From Mariniflexile maritimum (GTDB lineage: Bacteria; Bacteroidota; Bacteroidia; Flavobacteriales; Flavobacteriaceae): DNA of 64,000 nucleotides. This document shows, piece by piece, positions 30,840 to 46,966 of this stretch (position 1 is the stretch's first letter; each line of letters opens with the position of its first letter). Position numbers and translations under genes: made by a program. A model generated the notes under the pieces. The model was not told where the DNA came from and searched no databases. It worked only from the letters and a program-made list of their open reading frames with translations. The stretch lies in the NCBI RefSeq assembly GCF_009746565.1, contig NZ_WRPN01000006.1, forward strand, positions 124,001 through 188,000. Direction: 5' to 3'.

Positions 30840-30847
30840 TATCTTTG
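30840..30847 (+). promoter_or_regulatory. -7 box for the riboswitch-btuB transcript
   Basis: TATCTTTG matches TAnnTTTG and places the transcript start a few bases before the first conserved riboswitch sequence. There is no clear TTG box upstream. Confidence 0.5.
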
Positions 30848-30855
30848 CGCTGAAA

Positions 30856-31118
30856 TTTGGTTCGACGTACTTTATCCCAATAGCAGTGGGGTATTGGGTC
30901 GATTAAAAGGGAATCAAGTGAAAAGATTGACGATTTATGATTAACGATTAACGAATTTTGAAAAAAAATTCTGAAATCTAAAATACATATTCGTTTCTCT
31001 ACATTCTTGAACTGTTCCCGCAACTGTAAGCTACAACGCTTCATGTTCAACTTCAATGTCACTGAAGATTTTTCTTTGGGAAGACCAACATGAGGACGCA
31101 AGTCAGGAGACCTGCCAT
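30856..31118 (+). promoter_or_regulatory. Cobalamin (B12) riboswitch upstream of btuB
   Basis: The conserved pieces of the cobalamin element appear in order: TTAAAAGGGAATC (30903-30915) with GTGAAA following, TGTTCCCGCAACTGTAAGC (31013-31031), GTCACTG (31058-31064), TTGGGAAGACC (31076-31086), and the B12 box CAAGTCAGGAGACCTGCC (31099-31116). Adenosylcobalamin or a related corrinoid binding would repress btuB. The region between the GTGAAA segment and the CCCGC core is about 80 bases longer than usual and can form its own arm. The btuB start is 85 bp downstream. An ATG inside the element (31090) is in frame with btuB but is not a plausible start. Confidence 0.93.
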
Positions 31119-31200
31119 TTTCAAAACAAATAAGTTAAACTTTCGGGATAAAAGTTTGCGTATGATTTGCCATGCGGTTCTCGATTTATTAGTCATTAAA

Positions 31201-36433: not shown

Positions 36434-36492
36434 GCATCAAAAGTAATAAAAATTTGTACCCTATGGCAGGTGTTTATTTATTAAGGTTTCTT

Positions 36493-36621
36493 CCTGCTGT
36501 CCGCTATATCTTTTTGCGAAACAGTCCCGAACTTGTTTCGGTATCTTATCAAATTTACTGGTTTTCACTAGGTTATTGCATATCATCCATGTTTCGCAAA
36601 AAGGATGCCGCTACCATCAGG
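36493..36621. repeat. Dispersed inverted-repeat element (CCGCTATATCTTTTTGC type)
   Basis: The left arm CCTGCTGTCCGCTATATC (36493-36510) continues TTTTTGCGAAAC; the right arm GTTTCGCAAAAAGGATGC (36591-36608) continues CGCTACCATCAGG. TTTTTGCGAAAC / GTTTCGCAAAAA are perfectly complementary, and the outer parts pair imperfectly, around a loop of about 68 bp. I recognise this arrangement (pyrimidine arm with CTATCTTTTT, purine arm with AAAAAGGATxxCGCT) from intergenic DNA of many Flavobacteriaceae. It has no coding capacity and lies in the divergent region between the DUF3810 gene and pepD. Confidence 0.6.
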
Positions 36622-36635
36622 AGTAATAGCAATGG

Positions 36636-42690: not shown

Positions 42691-44376
42691 TTATTTTCGG
42701 TAAAACAATGCCTCAAAAGTAGCACTATTTCCAACATTATCGGTTACGATTACTTTTAAATTGTTCTTGGTTTCTATGGCTGTATTATCATTAAAATCGT
42801 AGGTTAATGTGTTAGTTTTATAGTCGTATTCCATTAAAATCCACTTGCCGTTTATCGTGGCGCGGTAGTTTGATATGCCCGAAAGCGCATCGTCTATTTT
42901 AATTTTTAAAAACCTGAAATTGCTCAACCATTGTCCGTCCTTAAAGTTTAATGGCGAAATGGTTGGCGCAACCGTATCAGTAGCGAGCGCATAGGTGCCC
43001 AAGGTTTTGGTGCTTGTTGATAAAACACTACCGTTTCTTTTGGTTGAAGAATATACGGGGTAATTTTTGAAGCCTACCAAGCGGGCAATAAATAGTTTGT
43101 CCCTATCGGCATCCTTGTAGTTGCTAATATCATAGCTAATGGTGAAGTTTTTGCGGGTAGGTACTATATCCTTATGCAAGGTTAGGGTGTCGTTCCTCAC
43201 GTTAAAATCCATATAAAAGTTTTCGTAAAAGGTCTCAGGATAAAAATCTACGGCAATATTTCCAGATTTTAAACTGGTATGTTGGGAAGCCGTAATATAA
43301 TAAGGAGTGGTTTTAGGTGTTTGTGGCTTTGTGTTGGTTGGCTTACGCCCTTTAATGTTAATGGATACAAAGGTTTCATTGTTTTTGAAATCGGACACGC
43401 GTATTTTATAAATGGATGAGATGCTGTCTGCAATGTTTAAAACGCCGTCGTTTATTATGGGCTTCAGCATGCTTAATGGGTTGTTTTTTTTGAACAATTT
43501 TTGGATGCGTTGCCGTTTGGTTACATAATGTTCGTAGTCAATATATTGGTTAAGGCAGGACGATTCATCAAAAGAGAACACGCTAAAATCGACTTCAAAA
43601 TTTTGACTGCCGTTAAAAAAGGTTTGTATGTTGTAAACCCCATTGGCGTTGGCTGCTAGGTCTTGCCTGTCGGTGGTTTCAATGCCAAAACCTATATTGC
43701 CAAAAGCTTCAACAGGTTCTGCGTTGTAATCGCCATTTTTTAAAGGAATGAGCCTTAACTTTTGGTTGGTATTTGTTTTGTTTATGGAAGCGTTTTCATC
43801 TAAAGGAAAGGCAAACAATGCGCTTACAACGGGTTTGGTGGTATCTTTTATATCCAAGCCAAAAAGCATGGGGTTCATGGGGCGTTCTTCTTTATCGCGA
43901 ATTTCAAAATGCAGATGCGGCCCGCCGGAACCACCCGAATTGCCCGTGTAAGCTATCAGGTTGCCTTTTGTGATGGGCAGTAAATCGGCAGCAGGAAACA
44001 CTTCAACCTCATAAGATTCTTGTTCATATTGCTTTTGTTTGATGAAGGCCTCAATTTCGGGCGAAAAGCTTTGTAAATGCCCATAAACCGTTGTGTAACC
44101 ATTGGGGTGGGTAATGTACAGGGCCTTTCCGTAGCCGAAATGGGCTACTTTTATGCGGCTTACAAACCCATTGGCGGGAGCAATAACCCTTAAGCCTTCA
44201 CGCTGTTGGGTTTTAATGTCCAGTCCTGAATGGAAATGGTTGGAGCGCAGTTCCCCAAAGTTGCCAGCCAAAATAAGCGGTACTTCCAATGGGGAGCTAA
44301 AATAGTCTTGTGGATAATTGTTTTGCGCATTTACAAATAGCGTCGCACTTAAAAAGAGGGATAGGATGAATCGCAT
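42691..44376 (-). CDS. M23 family metallopeptidase
   Basis: A 561-residue exported protein. Signal peptide MRFILSLFLSATLFVNAQ; peptidase M23 domain at about 30-165 with zinc ligands H49 and D53 in HFHSGLDI and the H154-L-H156 pair in PHLHFEIRD; catalytic histidine probably in VYGHLQ (H100). The remaining 400 residues are beta-rich domains not typical of small LytM enzymes, with IDDALSGISNYRATINGKW near the end. The family cuts peptidoglycan cross-bridges or activates amidases. The start at 44376 is chosen for the signal peptide over an ATG at 44436. It is divergent from the zapA operon and followed by a TonB receptor gene. Confidence 0.9.
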   Translation of the reverse strand: MRFILSLFLSATLFVNAQNNYPQDYFSSPLEVPLILAGNFGELRSNHFHSGLDIKTQQREGLRVIAPANGFVSRIKVAHFGYGKALYITHPNGYTTVYGHLQSFSPEIEAFIKQKQYEQESYEVEVFPAADLLPITKGNLIAYTGNSGGSGGPHLHFEIRDKEERPMNPMLFGLDIKDTTKPVVSALFAFPLDENASINKTNTNQKLRLIPLKNGDYNAEPVEAFGNIGFGIETTDRQDLAANANGVYNIQTFFNGSQNFEVDFSVFSFDESSCLNQYIDYEHYVTKRQRIQKLFKKNNPLSMLKPIINDGVLNIADSISSIYKIRVSDFKNNETFVSINIKGRKPTNTKPQTPKTTPYYITASQHTSLKSGNIAVDFYPETFYENFYMDFNVRNDTLTLHKDIVPTRKNFTISYDISNYKDADRDKLFIARLVGFKNYPVYSSTKRNGSVLSTSTKTLGTYALATDTVAPTISPLNFKDGQWLSNFRFLKIKIDDALSGISNYRATINGKWILMEYDYKTNTLTYDFNDNTAIETKNNLKVIVTDNVGNSATFEALFYRK

Positions 44377-44500
44377 AATGAATACAGTTGTTGCTAAAAT
44401 ATCAATAAGATATGAATGGGCAAAAGAATAAAACAAAAATCAGGTCGCTAGCCCCGATTTAGGGCAATAACGAGAATTTTTAAATTTTATTGAAAAACAA

Positions 44501-44531
44501 TTGTAATTTATAGACAGGTATGTTAACTTTG
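44501..44531 (+). promoter_or_regulatory. Promoter of the coiled-coil/zapA operon
   Basis: TTG at 44501-44503 and TAACTTTG at 44524-44531 are 20 bp apart, matching the Bacteroidetes consensus. The first start codon is 25 bp downstream. Confidence 0.6.
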
Positions 44532-44555
44532 TGAGATAAGTATTGAAATTTGCAA

Positions 44556-44846
44556 ATGAGTAATATTGAAGATATTGTACATTCGTTAGAAAGCAAAATA
44601 AACAAAGTATTACAAAAACTTGAGCTATTGAAGCATGCCAACTCTAAACTAAGTCAAGAACTGGAGGCTTCAAAGCAAGAAATTCTAAACCAAAAACAGC
44701 ATATTGCCACTTGGGAAGAAAAGTATGAAGCGCTTAAAATAGCAAATTCGATACTGGGTAGTGACGAAAATAAACGAGAAACCAAGCTTAAAATAAACGC
44801 ATTAATTAGGGATATTGATCATTGTATTGCGCAATTGTCCGATTAA
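44556..44846 (+). CDS. Small coiled-coil protein preceding zapA
   Basis: A 96-residue protein that is almost entirely coiled coil from about residue 8 to 60, with heptad-like leucines and isoleucines (ESKINKVLQKLELLKHANSK, LSQELEASKQEILNQKQ). It lies 15 bp before zapA on the same strand and under the same promoter. In size and shape it resembles ZapB-like division coiled coils, and a partnership with ZapA at the Z-ring is a reasonable inference, but no family motif proves it. The ATG at 44556 is preferred to an in-frame TTG two codons earlier. Confidence 0.75.
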   Translation: MSNIEDIVHSLESKINKVLQKLELLKHANSKLSQELEASKQEILNQKQHIATWEEKYEALKIANSILGSDENKRETKLKINALIRDIDHCIAQLSD

Positions 44847-44861
44847 GCACTTAGAAATCCA

Positions 44862-45155
44862 ATGGCGGAAAAGCTTAAAATAAAATTGTCTATAGCAAAT
44901 AGGGTGTACCCCCTAACCATTGATGCAAGCCAAGAAGAAGGCTTGCGAAAAGCCGCTAAAGACATTGATGCCATGATTAAGCAATTTGAAGAAAGTTACT
45001 CTGTTAGGGACAAGCAAGATGTACTGGCCATGTGCGCCCTGCAATTTGCCTCCCAAGTTGAACAGAAAGCTATTGATAAAGAGTATGTAAACGAGCATGT
45101 AGAAGAAAAACTAAATGCTTTAAACCAGTTGTTGCAAGCTCATTTGGTCTCTTAA
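44862..45155 (+). CDS. zapA: Cell division protein ZapA
   Basis: A 97-residue protein with the ZapA pattern: KIKLSIANRVYPLTIDASQEEGLRKAAKDIDAMIKQFEESY at the N-terminus, then a helix with KQDVLAMCALQFASQVE. ZapA binds and bundles FtsZ filaments at the division septum. It follows a small coiled-coil gene by 15 bp. Downstream lies the 6S RNA and then rny; zapA next to the 6S RNA gene also occurs in gamma-proteobacteria. Confidence 0.92.
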   Translation: MAEKLKIKLSIANRVYPLTIDASQEEGLRKAAKDIDAMIKQFEESYSVRDKQDVLAMCALQFASQVEQKAIDKEYVNEHVEEKLNALNQLLQAHLVS

Positions 45156-45179
45156 ACGTTCTTTAAAATAAACTAAGTT

Positions 45180-45367
45180 ACTGCCTACATTAGTTATTTT
45201 TTTTGATAAACTCAACGTTAATTCTTTAAAAAGGGTGAGTTTAAGTTGTAAAAGCAAGCTGCATCCGCTGGATTTATTTCAGTACCGCAGATCCTTGATC
45301 AGCTTGTTAGCCCTAAACTTGTTTTTAAGGAGTTTATACAAAATTTCAAACTGATGTAGGCTTTTTT
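45180..45367 (+). ncRNA. ssrS: 6S RNA, flavobacterial type
   Basis: Between zapA and rny a stretch of about 185 bases folds as a long closed rod. The ends GCCTACATTAGTT (45183-45195) and AACTGATGTAGGC (45349-45361) pair over 13 bp, and the 3' arm is followed by TTTTTT, so the closing stem also acts as terminator. Internal stems include CAAGCTG/CAGCTTG (45255-45261 and 45300-45306), ATCC/GGAT (45263-45273) and GATC/GATC (45290-45300). The segment AAACTC at 45208 can pair either with GAGTTT at 45237 or with GAGTTT at 45330. Shape, size and the zapA context match 6S RNA, which binds the housekeeping RNA polymerase. The separate flavobacterial family (6S-Flavo) is what I recall for this group. 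Confidence 0.82.
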
Positions 45368-45394: not shown

Positions 45395-46966
45395 ATGGAT
45401 AAATTTATATTAATAGCCGTGGGCATAGTGCTAGGACTTGTCATAGGCTTTATCATTGCCAAGGTTCTGGAAAAAAACAACGCTTCCAAACTGGTAAAGG
45501 AAGCTAAAAAAAGTGCAACGCTCATTCTGAAAGAGGCTAATAGCGAAGGTGAATCAATAAAAAAAGATAAAATACTTCAAGCCAAGGAAAAGTTTATTGA
45601 GCTTAAATCGGAACACGAAAAAGTAATACTGGCCCGTGACAAAAAAATGGCGGAGGTTGAAAAGCGCATCCGCGATAAGGAGTCGCAGCTATCAAATGAA
45701 TTGGCCAAAAGCAAAAAACTAAACGATAGCCTAGAAGAAAAGGAAAAGGATTATGACCACCGATTGGAAGTGCTGGAAAAAAAGCAAGAAGAGATCGATA
45801 AACTCCATAAAAACCAAGTACAACAACTAGAAATTATTTCTAGCCTTTCGGCCGAAGACGCCAAGGAGCAACTGGTAGAGTCATTAAAGGGCGAAGCTAA
45901 AAATGATGCCATGGCTTTTATCCAAAGTGCTATGGAAGAGGCTAAATTAACGGCCGAACAGGATGCCAAAAAAATCATCATCAATACCATCCAACGCATT
46001 GGAACCGAAGAAGCAGTTGATAATTGCGTATCTGTTTTCAACATAGAATCGGATGATGTAAAAGGTCGCATCATTGGTCGTGAAGGAAGAAACATTCGTG
46101 CCATTGAAGCCGCTACTGGTGTAGAAATAATTGTTGATGATACCCCAGAGGCCATTATTTTATCGTGTTTTGATTCGGTTAGACGCGAAATTGCCCGTTT
46201 ATCGTTGCATAAATTGGTAACCGATGGCAGAATCCATCCAGCTCGCATTGAAGAAGTTGTTGAAAAAACAACCAAACAAATTGAACAGGAAATAATAGAG
46301 GTTGGTAAACGTACCGTTATCGATTTGGGCATTCACAACCTGCATCCAGAGCTTATCAAAATGGTAGGTAGGATGAAATACCGGTCGTCTTACGGACAAA
46401 ATTTATTGCAACACTCGCGCGAAGTGGCAAAACTTTGTGGTGTGATGGCTGCTGAATTAGGTTTAAATCCAAAACTAGCCAAACGCGCTGGTTTATTGCA
46501 CGATATTGGTAAAGTGCCCGATGCTGAAACCGATATGGAAACCCCACACGCCATACTTGGTATGCAATGGGCTGAAAAATATGGGGAAAAGGATGAAGTG
46601 GTTAACGCCATAGGAGCGCATCACGACGAAATTGAAATGAAATCGCTGTTGGCACCCATTGTTCAGGTATGCGATGCTATTTCAGGTGCGCGTCCTGGTG
46701 CACGTCGTCAGGTTTTGGATAGCTATATCCAACGCTTAAAAGATTTGGAAGATATTGCTTTCGGGTTTAACGGTGTTAAAAAGGCCTACGCTATTCAAGC
46801 AGGCCGTGAGTTAAGGGTGATTGTGGAAAGCGAAAAGGTGGACGACCAAAAGGCGGCCGATTTATCATTCAGCATTTCACAAAAAATACAAACCGATATG
46901 ACCTATCCGGGGCAGGTAAAGGTTACTGTAATTAGGGAAACCCGAGCTGTTAACATTGCAAAATAA
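45395..46966 (+). CDS. rny: Ribonuclease Y
   Basis: A 523-residue membrane-anchored endoribonuclease that initiates mRNA decay. Order of domains: N-terminal span (about 3-24), long coiled coil (about 30-170), KH domain (about 210-275, with [24 protein letters not shown]), and HD domain (about 335-430) with the metal motif in [10 protein letters not shown] near 370 and the first histidine in [11 protein letters not shown]. The C-terminal segment REIGVEDQ-like [27 protein letters not shown] is also conserved. The length is normal. It lies after the 6S RNA and its terminator and is followed by a hairpin. Confidence 0.96.

Follow-up and report, generated by a model that had tools for sequence, protein, structure and literature searches.

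6S RNA is a small RNA that silences RNA polymerase and adjusts transcription across the cell. The Bacteroidota, which have a promoter type of their own, also possess it, and the 6S-Flavo family (Rfam RF01685) was named in 2010 (PMC2864571). For Bacteroides thetaiotaomicron, the accessible part of one report describes a 6S RNA with product RNAs of two classes (PMC7366714). We found little in the literature searched on how 6S RNA is made or released in Bacteroidota. Outside the phylum, excerpts of published work describe a ZapB-ZapA-SsrS array in beta- and gamma-proteobacteria (PMC7641849), and a release rearrangement in Bacillus subtilis 6S-1 and Aquifex 6S RNA, in which the freed 3' strand of P2 pairs with the distal 5' side of the bubble (PMC8876501, PMC4227106). 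The E. coli K-12 annotation runs zapA, 41 bp, ssrS, fau. The boxA antitermination signal has its usual place in ribosomal RNA genes. Its published pattern, GYTCTTTAANA, comes from a study, seen in excerpt, that treats the boxA of rRNA operons and suhB and surveys gamma-proteobacterial protein genes, excluding non-coding RNAs by its own statement (PMC5725501).

The window (the whole 64,000-nt stretch of DNA analysed here) carries at 45180-45367 the ordinary 6S RNA of a flavobacterium (Table 1). Positions 45210-45335 on the plus strand match RF01685 in sequence and core structure with 104.2 bits, above the gathering score of 85 (E 2.6e-17), and Pfam recognizes ZapA and RNase Y on either side, so that an earlier note's reading of this stretch, 6S RNA between zapA and rny, is confirmed on both counts. 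The nearest named relatives of the RNase Y are in Flavobacteriaceae, e.g. Flaviramulus, Mariniflexile and Tamlana. As in E. coli, zapA lies directly upstream of the 6S gene on the same strand, and as in the proteobacterial array, zapB precedes zapA (PMC7641849); the excerpt of that paper mentions no ZapB-ZapA-6S order in Bacteroidia. The E. coli locus differs in having fau rather than rny downstream, and in lacking a boxA-like site, as judged by eye over 70 nt at the K-12 zapA-ssrS junction. By its published description, the B. thetaiotaomicron RNA shares phylum and RNA class with this one (PMC7366714). Two other RNAs were seen in the window: a Cobalamin riboswitch at 30841-31133 (88.2 bits, with a long insert) and a Flavo-1 RNA at 36486-36628 on the minus strand (60.8 bits, with a large hairpin insert of 68 positions).

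Table 1. Coordinates, in the window, of the features of the zapB-zapA-6S-rny locus.
Feature	Position	Strand	Remarks
TAACTTTG, -7 box of zapB promoter	44524..44531	+	TTG at 44501-44503, 20 nt upstream
zapB-like coiled-coil gene	44556..44846	+	best Pfam match ZapB, E 0.00036, under the curated cut-off; residues from 44559 on
zapA	44862..45155	+	Pfam ZapA E 1.7e-19; stop TAA 45153-45155
boxA-like element GTTCTTTAAAATA	45158..45170	+	2 nt past zapA stop; first 11 bases an exact GYTCTTTAANA
6S RNA (6S-Flavo) with closing stem and U-run	45180..45367	+	RF01685 104.2 bits; own model R1 178 bits
P1, 5' strand	45183..45195	+	pairs with 45349-45361, then six T; P1 covariation in 38 sequences
Element A (P2, 5' strand)	45206..45213	+	pairs with D, 45330-45337; putative product-RNA template; 98.9% of cells paired
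AAC opening the 5' side of the central bubble	45214..45216	+	AAC in 38/38 Flavobacteriaceae and 50/51 diverse rows; C45216 the proposed product start
5' strand of possible 12-bp helix collapsing the central bubble	45220..45231	+	with 45323-45334; best fold once 45208-45216 is blocked
Element B (local partner of A in the earlier note)	45236..45243	+	present here; lost or drifting in relatives
CTGGATTTATTTCAG hairpin insert	45268..45282	+	apical loop of 6S RNA; sequence comparison
Element C, UAAACUUG, 3' side of bubble	45314..45321	+	possible mimic of the -7 box (TAnnTTTG); A2/T7/G8 kept in 38/38
Element D (P2, 3' strand)	45330..45337	+	pairing counts with A
rny (RNase Y)	45395..46966	+	Pfam RNase_Y_N E 2.4e-37

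The Rfam structure leaves elements A, B, C and D unpaired, and P1 and P2 fall outside it. With RF01685 the RNA was detected in 290 of 299 Flavobacteriaceae genomes and in 37 of 296 genomes of a phylum sample, 36 of them from the same order. Our own covariance model, R1, which was built with the closing helices that Rfam omits, found it in 153 of 246 genomes of the order (E 0.01), in 49 of 247 genomes of the class sample (E 0.1) and in 39 of 296 genomes of the phylum sample, one of which is a weak 35-nt match outside the class; all of these genome counts are lower bounds, since stricter filters were used. Genome G037, missed in the phylum-sample count, gives 49.5 bits with R1 when its own stretch is searched. 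This 6S-like RNA (L065, G037:C56) belongs to another family of the class, and has perhaps been relocated, since its contig differs from that of rny (G037:C47). Of the loci from outside the family, 12 were scored against Rfam, and all of them fall short of every gathering threshold. The distant R1 matches are believable because, in 113 of the 114 locus records (several genomes being counted twice), zapA and rny enclose the RNA and share a strand; outside the order this holds for 21 of 22 loci (L113-L134, with L133 the exception). R1 with its closing helices thus detects the RNA more widely in the class, including below the Rfam threshold. Eleven reverse-strand R1 matches (30-35 bits) were dropped as an artefact of the rod scoring against its own complement.

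Three alignments were used. A1 is a plain sequence alignment of 38 full-length sequences (40 non-redundant sequences less L023 and L065), and A2 and A3 were fitted to the rod model. A3 holds 100 sequences, 38 of them from Flavobacteriaceae, with L090 and L168 omitted and L172 and L173 added. In partner-swap tests, element positions were taken from A2 and A3 and no aligned pair columns were used; the rank expected by chance is 0.5.

The fold of the 188-nt RNA (−57.8 kcal/mol, z = −6.8) is well past chance, being equalled by none of 200 shuffles. The RNA forms a rod, two helical arms with the central bubble between them, and covariation keeps the arms: RNAalifold on A1 gives the rod with 36 consensus pairs, 24 of which show double changes. 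The earlier note described the closing stem as a perfect 13-bp helix that doubles as terminator. P1 does run without interruption for 13 pairs, of which 12 are Watson-Crick and one (45191-45353) is U-G, and TTTTTT follows at 45362-45367. A terminator scan, which permits loops of 3-8 bases only, did not flag P1 and its U-run. In the apical loop, loci L011 and L016 carry CTGAATTTATTTCAG, which resembles CTGGATTTATTTCAG, and there are three exact copies of CTGAATTTATTTCAG elsewhere in the genome; these sequences are therefore perhaps a small mobile or dispersed palindrome.

The long-range pairing of A with D is conserved among the relatives. In A3, 98.9% of the A:D cells are paired, seven of the eight pairs are doubly changed (79 double-change cells), and the covariation score is 0.321 vs. 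0.122 for shuffled alignments, with 0 of 500 shuffles as high. Even in A1, which was aligned without structure, two of the pairs have nine doubly changed cells between them. The pairing of 45208-45213 with 45330-45335, which the earlier note had put forward, thus stands, with covariation in both A1 and A3.

How is this RNA expressed? On the sense strand of 44300-45250, the sole TAnnTTTG is the one before zapB at 44524. A promoter of the form TTG-N19/20-TAnnTTTG lies 639-662 nt upstream of 6S in all 25 Flavobacteriaceae loci with long flanks, and in 23 of these its TAnnTTTG is the only one in the 760 nt upstream; L013 and L016 carry a second, nearer 6S. Among 19 long loci from outside the family, 14 have TAnnTTTG 647-705 nt upstream (with TTG 18-21 nt before it in 5 of the 14), and in the other five TAnnTTTG is absent within 900 nt upstream of 6S. 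Close to the RNA, a scan that is blind to promoters of other sigma factors shows no enrichment of TAnnTTTG: it occurs within 60 nt upstream in 2 of 51 diverse loci vs. 1.83 expected, and between a point 80 nt before the end of 6S and the start of rny in 1 of 44 vs. 3.9 expected (one further locus, with no rny start, was excluded). Thus, canonical promoters dedicated to 6S or to rny do not seem to exceed chance. A scan for sigma-70-type promoters was set aside, having found 2 vs. 2.5 expected.

The simplest model for these results is a single transcription unit in which the zapB promoter would drive zapB, zapA, 6S and, in part, rny. The ribosome would stop at the end of zapA, and boxA would then load NusB/NusE, sparing the untranslated transcript from Rho. 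The P1 stem and U-run would terminate most transcripts, and processing would generate the 5' end of 6S. We infer that a zapB-zapA-6S(-rny) transcript, guarded by Nus factors, is the precursor from which the 6S RNA is released.

The element on which this account turns lies between zapA and 6S. Of 100 loci, 72 have GTTC[TA]TT within 110 nt upstream of 6S; in the diverse set the count is 36 of 51, where shuffles predict 0.57, and on the antisense strand it is 1 of the 51. Four of the 15 diverse loci without it carry the near variant GTTCTTA. Allowing at most one mismatch, 23 of the 51 diverse loci carry the full pattern GYTCTTTAANA (0.68 expected), and nine carry it exactly (0.03 expected). The genome of the window has 11 copies of GTTCTTTRAMATA vs. 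2 of a reversed control pattern; apart from the 6S copy, those tested have no Rfam match or tRNA nearby. When mismatches are allowed, GTTCATAGACATATTG is found in the rRNA operon of the same genome, 162 nt ahead of 16S, and CGTTCATTGACATATTG follows tRNA-Ala there, at the position expected for 23S. The element has the same pattern as the boxA of rRNA operons and suhB, and, as in rRNA operons, it stands upstream of an untranslated structured RNA (PMC5725501, in excerpt). For boxA together with 6S RNA we found nothing in print, in a search that may have missed prior art on the structure of Bacteroidota 6S RNA.

Could the conserved GTTCTTTAAMATA element instead be a 6S promoter for another sigma factor, with no boxA involved? 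Among the diverse Flavobacteriaceae compared, its distance to the RNA is about constant (21-25 nt), as would be expected of such a promoter. Over 72 loci, however, this distance varies from 11 to 102 nt, and the element is in this respect unlike a core promoter; moreover, it fits the published boxA pattern and has counterparts in the organism's own rRNA operon. We regard the promoter reading as rather unlikely. By eye, a small hairpin was seen between the boxA-like site and 6S in L113, L116, L123 and L132, and it may be a processing site. At G000:C1:81077 (L268), GTTCTTTGACATA is followed by a strong inverted repeat, CCACAACGGAAAATC / GATTTTCCGTTGTGG, with no Rfam or tRNA match; this is possibly another boxA-led RNA.

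By analogy with the 6S family, the central bubble of the rod would mimic an open promoter and hold the housekeeping RNA polymerase, which would be freed when it transcribes a short product RNA from the 5' side of the bubble. Within this phylum, a 6S RNA with product RNAs had already been reported, for B. thetaiotaomicron (PMC7366714, in excerpt). Element C is a candidate mimic of the -7 box: in Flavobacteriaceae, A2, T7 and G8 of TAnnTTTG are kept in 38 of 38 sequences, but at position 5, for which the consensus calls for T, 36 of the 38 have C. Outside the family the resemblance is weaker (A2 in 38, T7 in 48 and G8 in 34 of 50 diverse rows). Overall, mimicry of -7 and -33 by the 6S RNA would be a weak match. 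The -7 box of F. psychrophilum spans −12 to −5 (PMC9723704, in excerpt). The spacing from C to D is 7 nt in 13 of 38 rows and 8 nt in 22 of 38; with 7 nt and a box at −12 to −5, +1 falls opposite C45216, and an 8-nt spacing shifts it by one base. The product RNA is predicted to be 5'-GUUGAGUUUAUC.

If copying begins at C45216, the product would take up strand A and free D, which would refold locally. In the clade of the window, the most likely outcome is a 12-bp helix that collapses the central bubble, much like the release rearrangement described for 6S-1 of B. subtilis and for the Aquifex RNA (PMC8876501, PMC4227106, in excerpt). Unlike that arrangement, however, the helix here is predicted and clade-specific: it is strong in the clade of the window, and there is little or none of it in L002, L008, L013 and others. 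Its swap rank is 0.439 (p = 0.035) with 100 sequences and 0.428 (p = 0.083), with z = −0.11, with 51 diverse sequences. As a feature of the whole family it is doubtful, given its clade-specific occurrence, its weak swap signal at n = 100 and the lack of significance at n = 51. Nevertheless, if synthesis of the product RNA refolds the 6S RNA, this clade-specific helix is likelier to form than A:B.

Alternatively, refolding could be of the E. coli type, in which 45330-45335 of the freed D would pair with AAACUU at 45315-45320, on the bubble's 3' side. This helix is present in the window and forms in the fold in which A:B is forced, the folds of 3' fragments have a small edge over those of shuffles (mean z −0.61 and −0.40), and with 100 sequences a sequence's own partners do slightly better than swapped ones (rank 0.423, p = 0.014). 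On the other hand, the pair counts are those of shuffled sequences (75.5% vs. 75.6%), no single register of C with D is conserved, and an earlier swap test with other boundaries brought no gain (0.627, n = 100; 0.596, n = 50), which makes a hairpin of this type unlikely. From the results for both helices, it seems that the release structures vary by clade while the rod is kept.

The boxA-like element could also serve rny rather than the 6S RNA. In favour of this reading, 43 of 44 loci lack TAnnTTTG over the stretch from 80 nt before the 6S end to rny. We also looked at 12 genomes of the class that have no R1 match in the phylum-sample count, with zapA judged by eye. In seven, zapA adjoins rny with too little room for 6S, and GTTC[TA]TT occurs in none of these seven; two of them have near variants, L267 GTTCTTATA and L257 CGTTCAATAA. 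Two others have a diverged 6S candidate (R1 26.2 and 16.2 bits), of which L259 carries GTTCTTT, and thus GTTC[TA]TT, and L258 GTTCTTA. In the remaining three, zapA was not identified by eye. A role for the element in the expression of rny instead of 6S appears very doubtful.

Finally, the earlier note proposed a switch, in which A pairs with either D or B, and the exchange between the two frees polymerase. AAACTC at 45208-45213 and GAGTTT at both 45237-45242 and 45330-45335 are indeed all present, and in the window A:B is even a perfect 8-bp helix. Other results also speak for it: several unrelated clades have local partners of A of 8-9 bp (L141, L148, L127, L132), local pairing of A exceeds that of shuffles, with a mean z of −1.04 for the 51 diverse sequences and −1.98 for the 38 Flavobacteriaceae, and the 5' fragment folds with z of −0.45 to −0.59 relative to shuffles. 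Yet A:B shows no compensatory change in the 38 sequences of A1, and in A3, where the B columns are loosely aligned outside Flavobacteriaceae, it is indistinguishable from shuffles in cells paired (59.3% vs. 59.9%) and in covariation (0.038 vs. 0.043). Covariation, which had been proposed as a check of both pairings, is thus found for A:D and not for A:B. D tracks changes in A and B does not: where position 45207 is C, in five Flavobacteriaceae rows, D has the matching G in 5/5 and B stays A in 5/5, and in L155, L124 and L153, where A itself is altered, D changes with it. Exchanging B partners across species makes no difference (mean rank 0.498 in 51 diverse sequences vs. 0.220 for A:D).

Folding predictions agree with this. 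In the full RNA the probability of A:D is 0.95-0.997 and that of A:B 0.000, and forcing A:B costs 6.8 kcal/mol. In the growing transcript, A:B has a probability of 0.94 when synthesis has reached 45245, 0.23 at 45325 and 0.00 at 45350, where A:D already has 0.93; A:B is thus a likely early fold that later gives way. Moreover, the product RNA would itself take up strand A, in competition with B. The local pairing therefore exists here but is not a conserved alternative, and a conserved switch between two competing pairings is highly improbable; the A:B hairpin would be, at most, a transient of the unfinished transcript. Given the 8-9 bp partners in several clades and the z-scores beyond shuffles, local pairing of A may have a helper role in folding. 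The class-wide alignment appears to tell the selected pairing, A:D, from pairings that merely resemble switches. Pairing of B with C was also rejected, as several pairs are often broken and only one doubly changed cell is seen in 38 sequences.

Taken together, we favour an account that combines the 6S rod, an operon driven by the zapB promoter, antitermination through boxA and release by synthesis of a product RNA, and give it a probability of roughly 0.7. For the broader proposition, that 6S RNA lacks a gene of its own across much of the class Bacteroidia and is instead carved from the zapB-zapA(-rny) messenger with the help of boxA-dependent Nus antitermination, as in rRNA operons, the balance tips only slightly in favour. 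With product RNAs reported for B. thetaiotaomicron and 6S-Flavo named in 2010, the RNA itself was already known, and what is apparently new is the unit in which it is expressed. With a boxA beside 6S RNA, antitermination would reach a stable RNA other than rRNA, in addition to a few messenger leaders. That zapB-zapA-6S stands in the same order here and in beta- and gamma-proteobacteria suggests that division genes and the silencing of polymerase have a link that is old or recurrent. If the account is true, the RNA that silences polymerase would be tied to the expression of cell-division genes and, via its terminator, to that of RNase Y.
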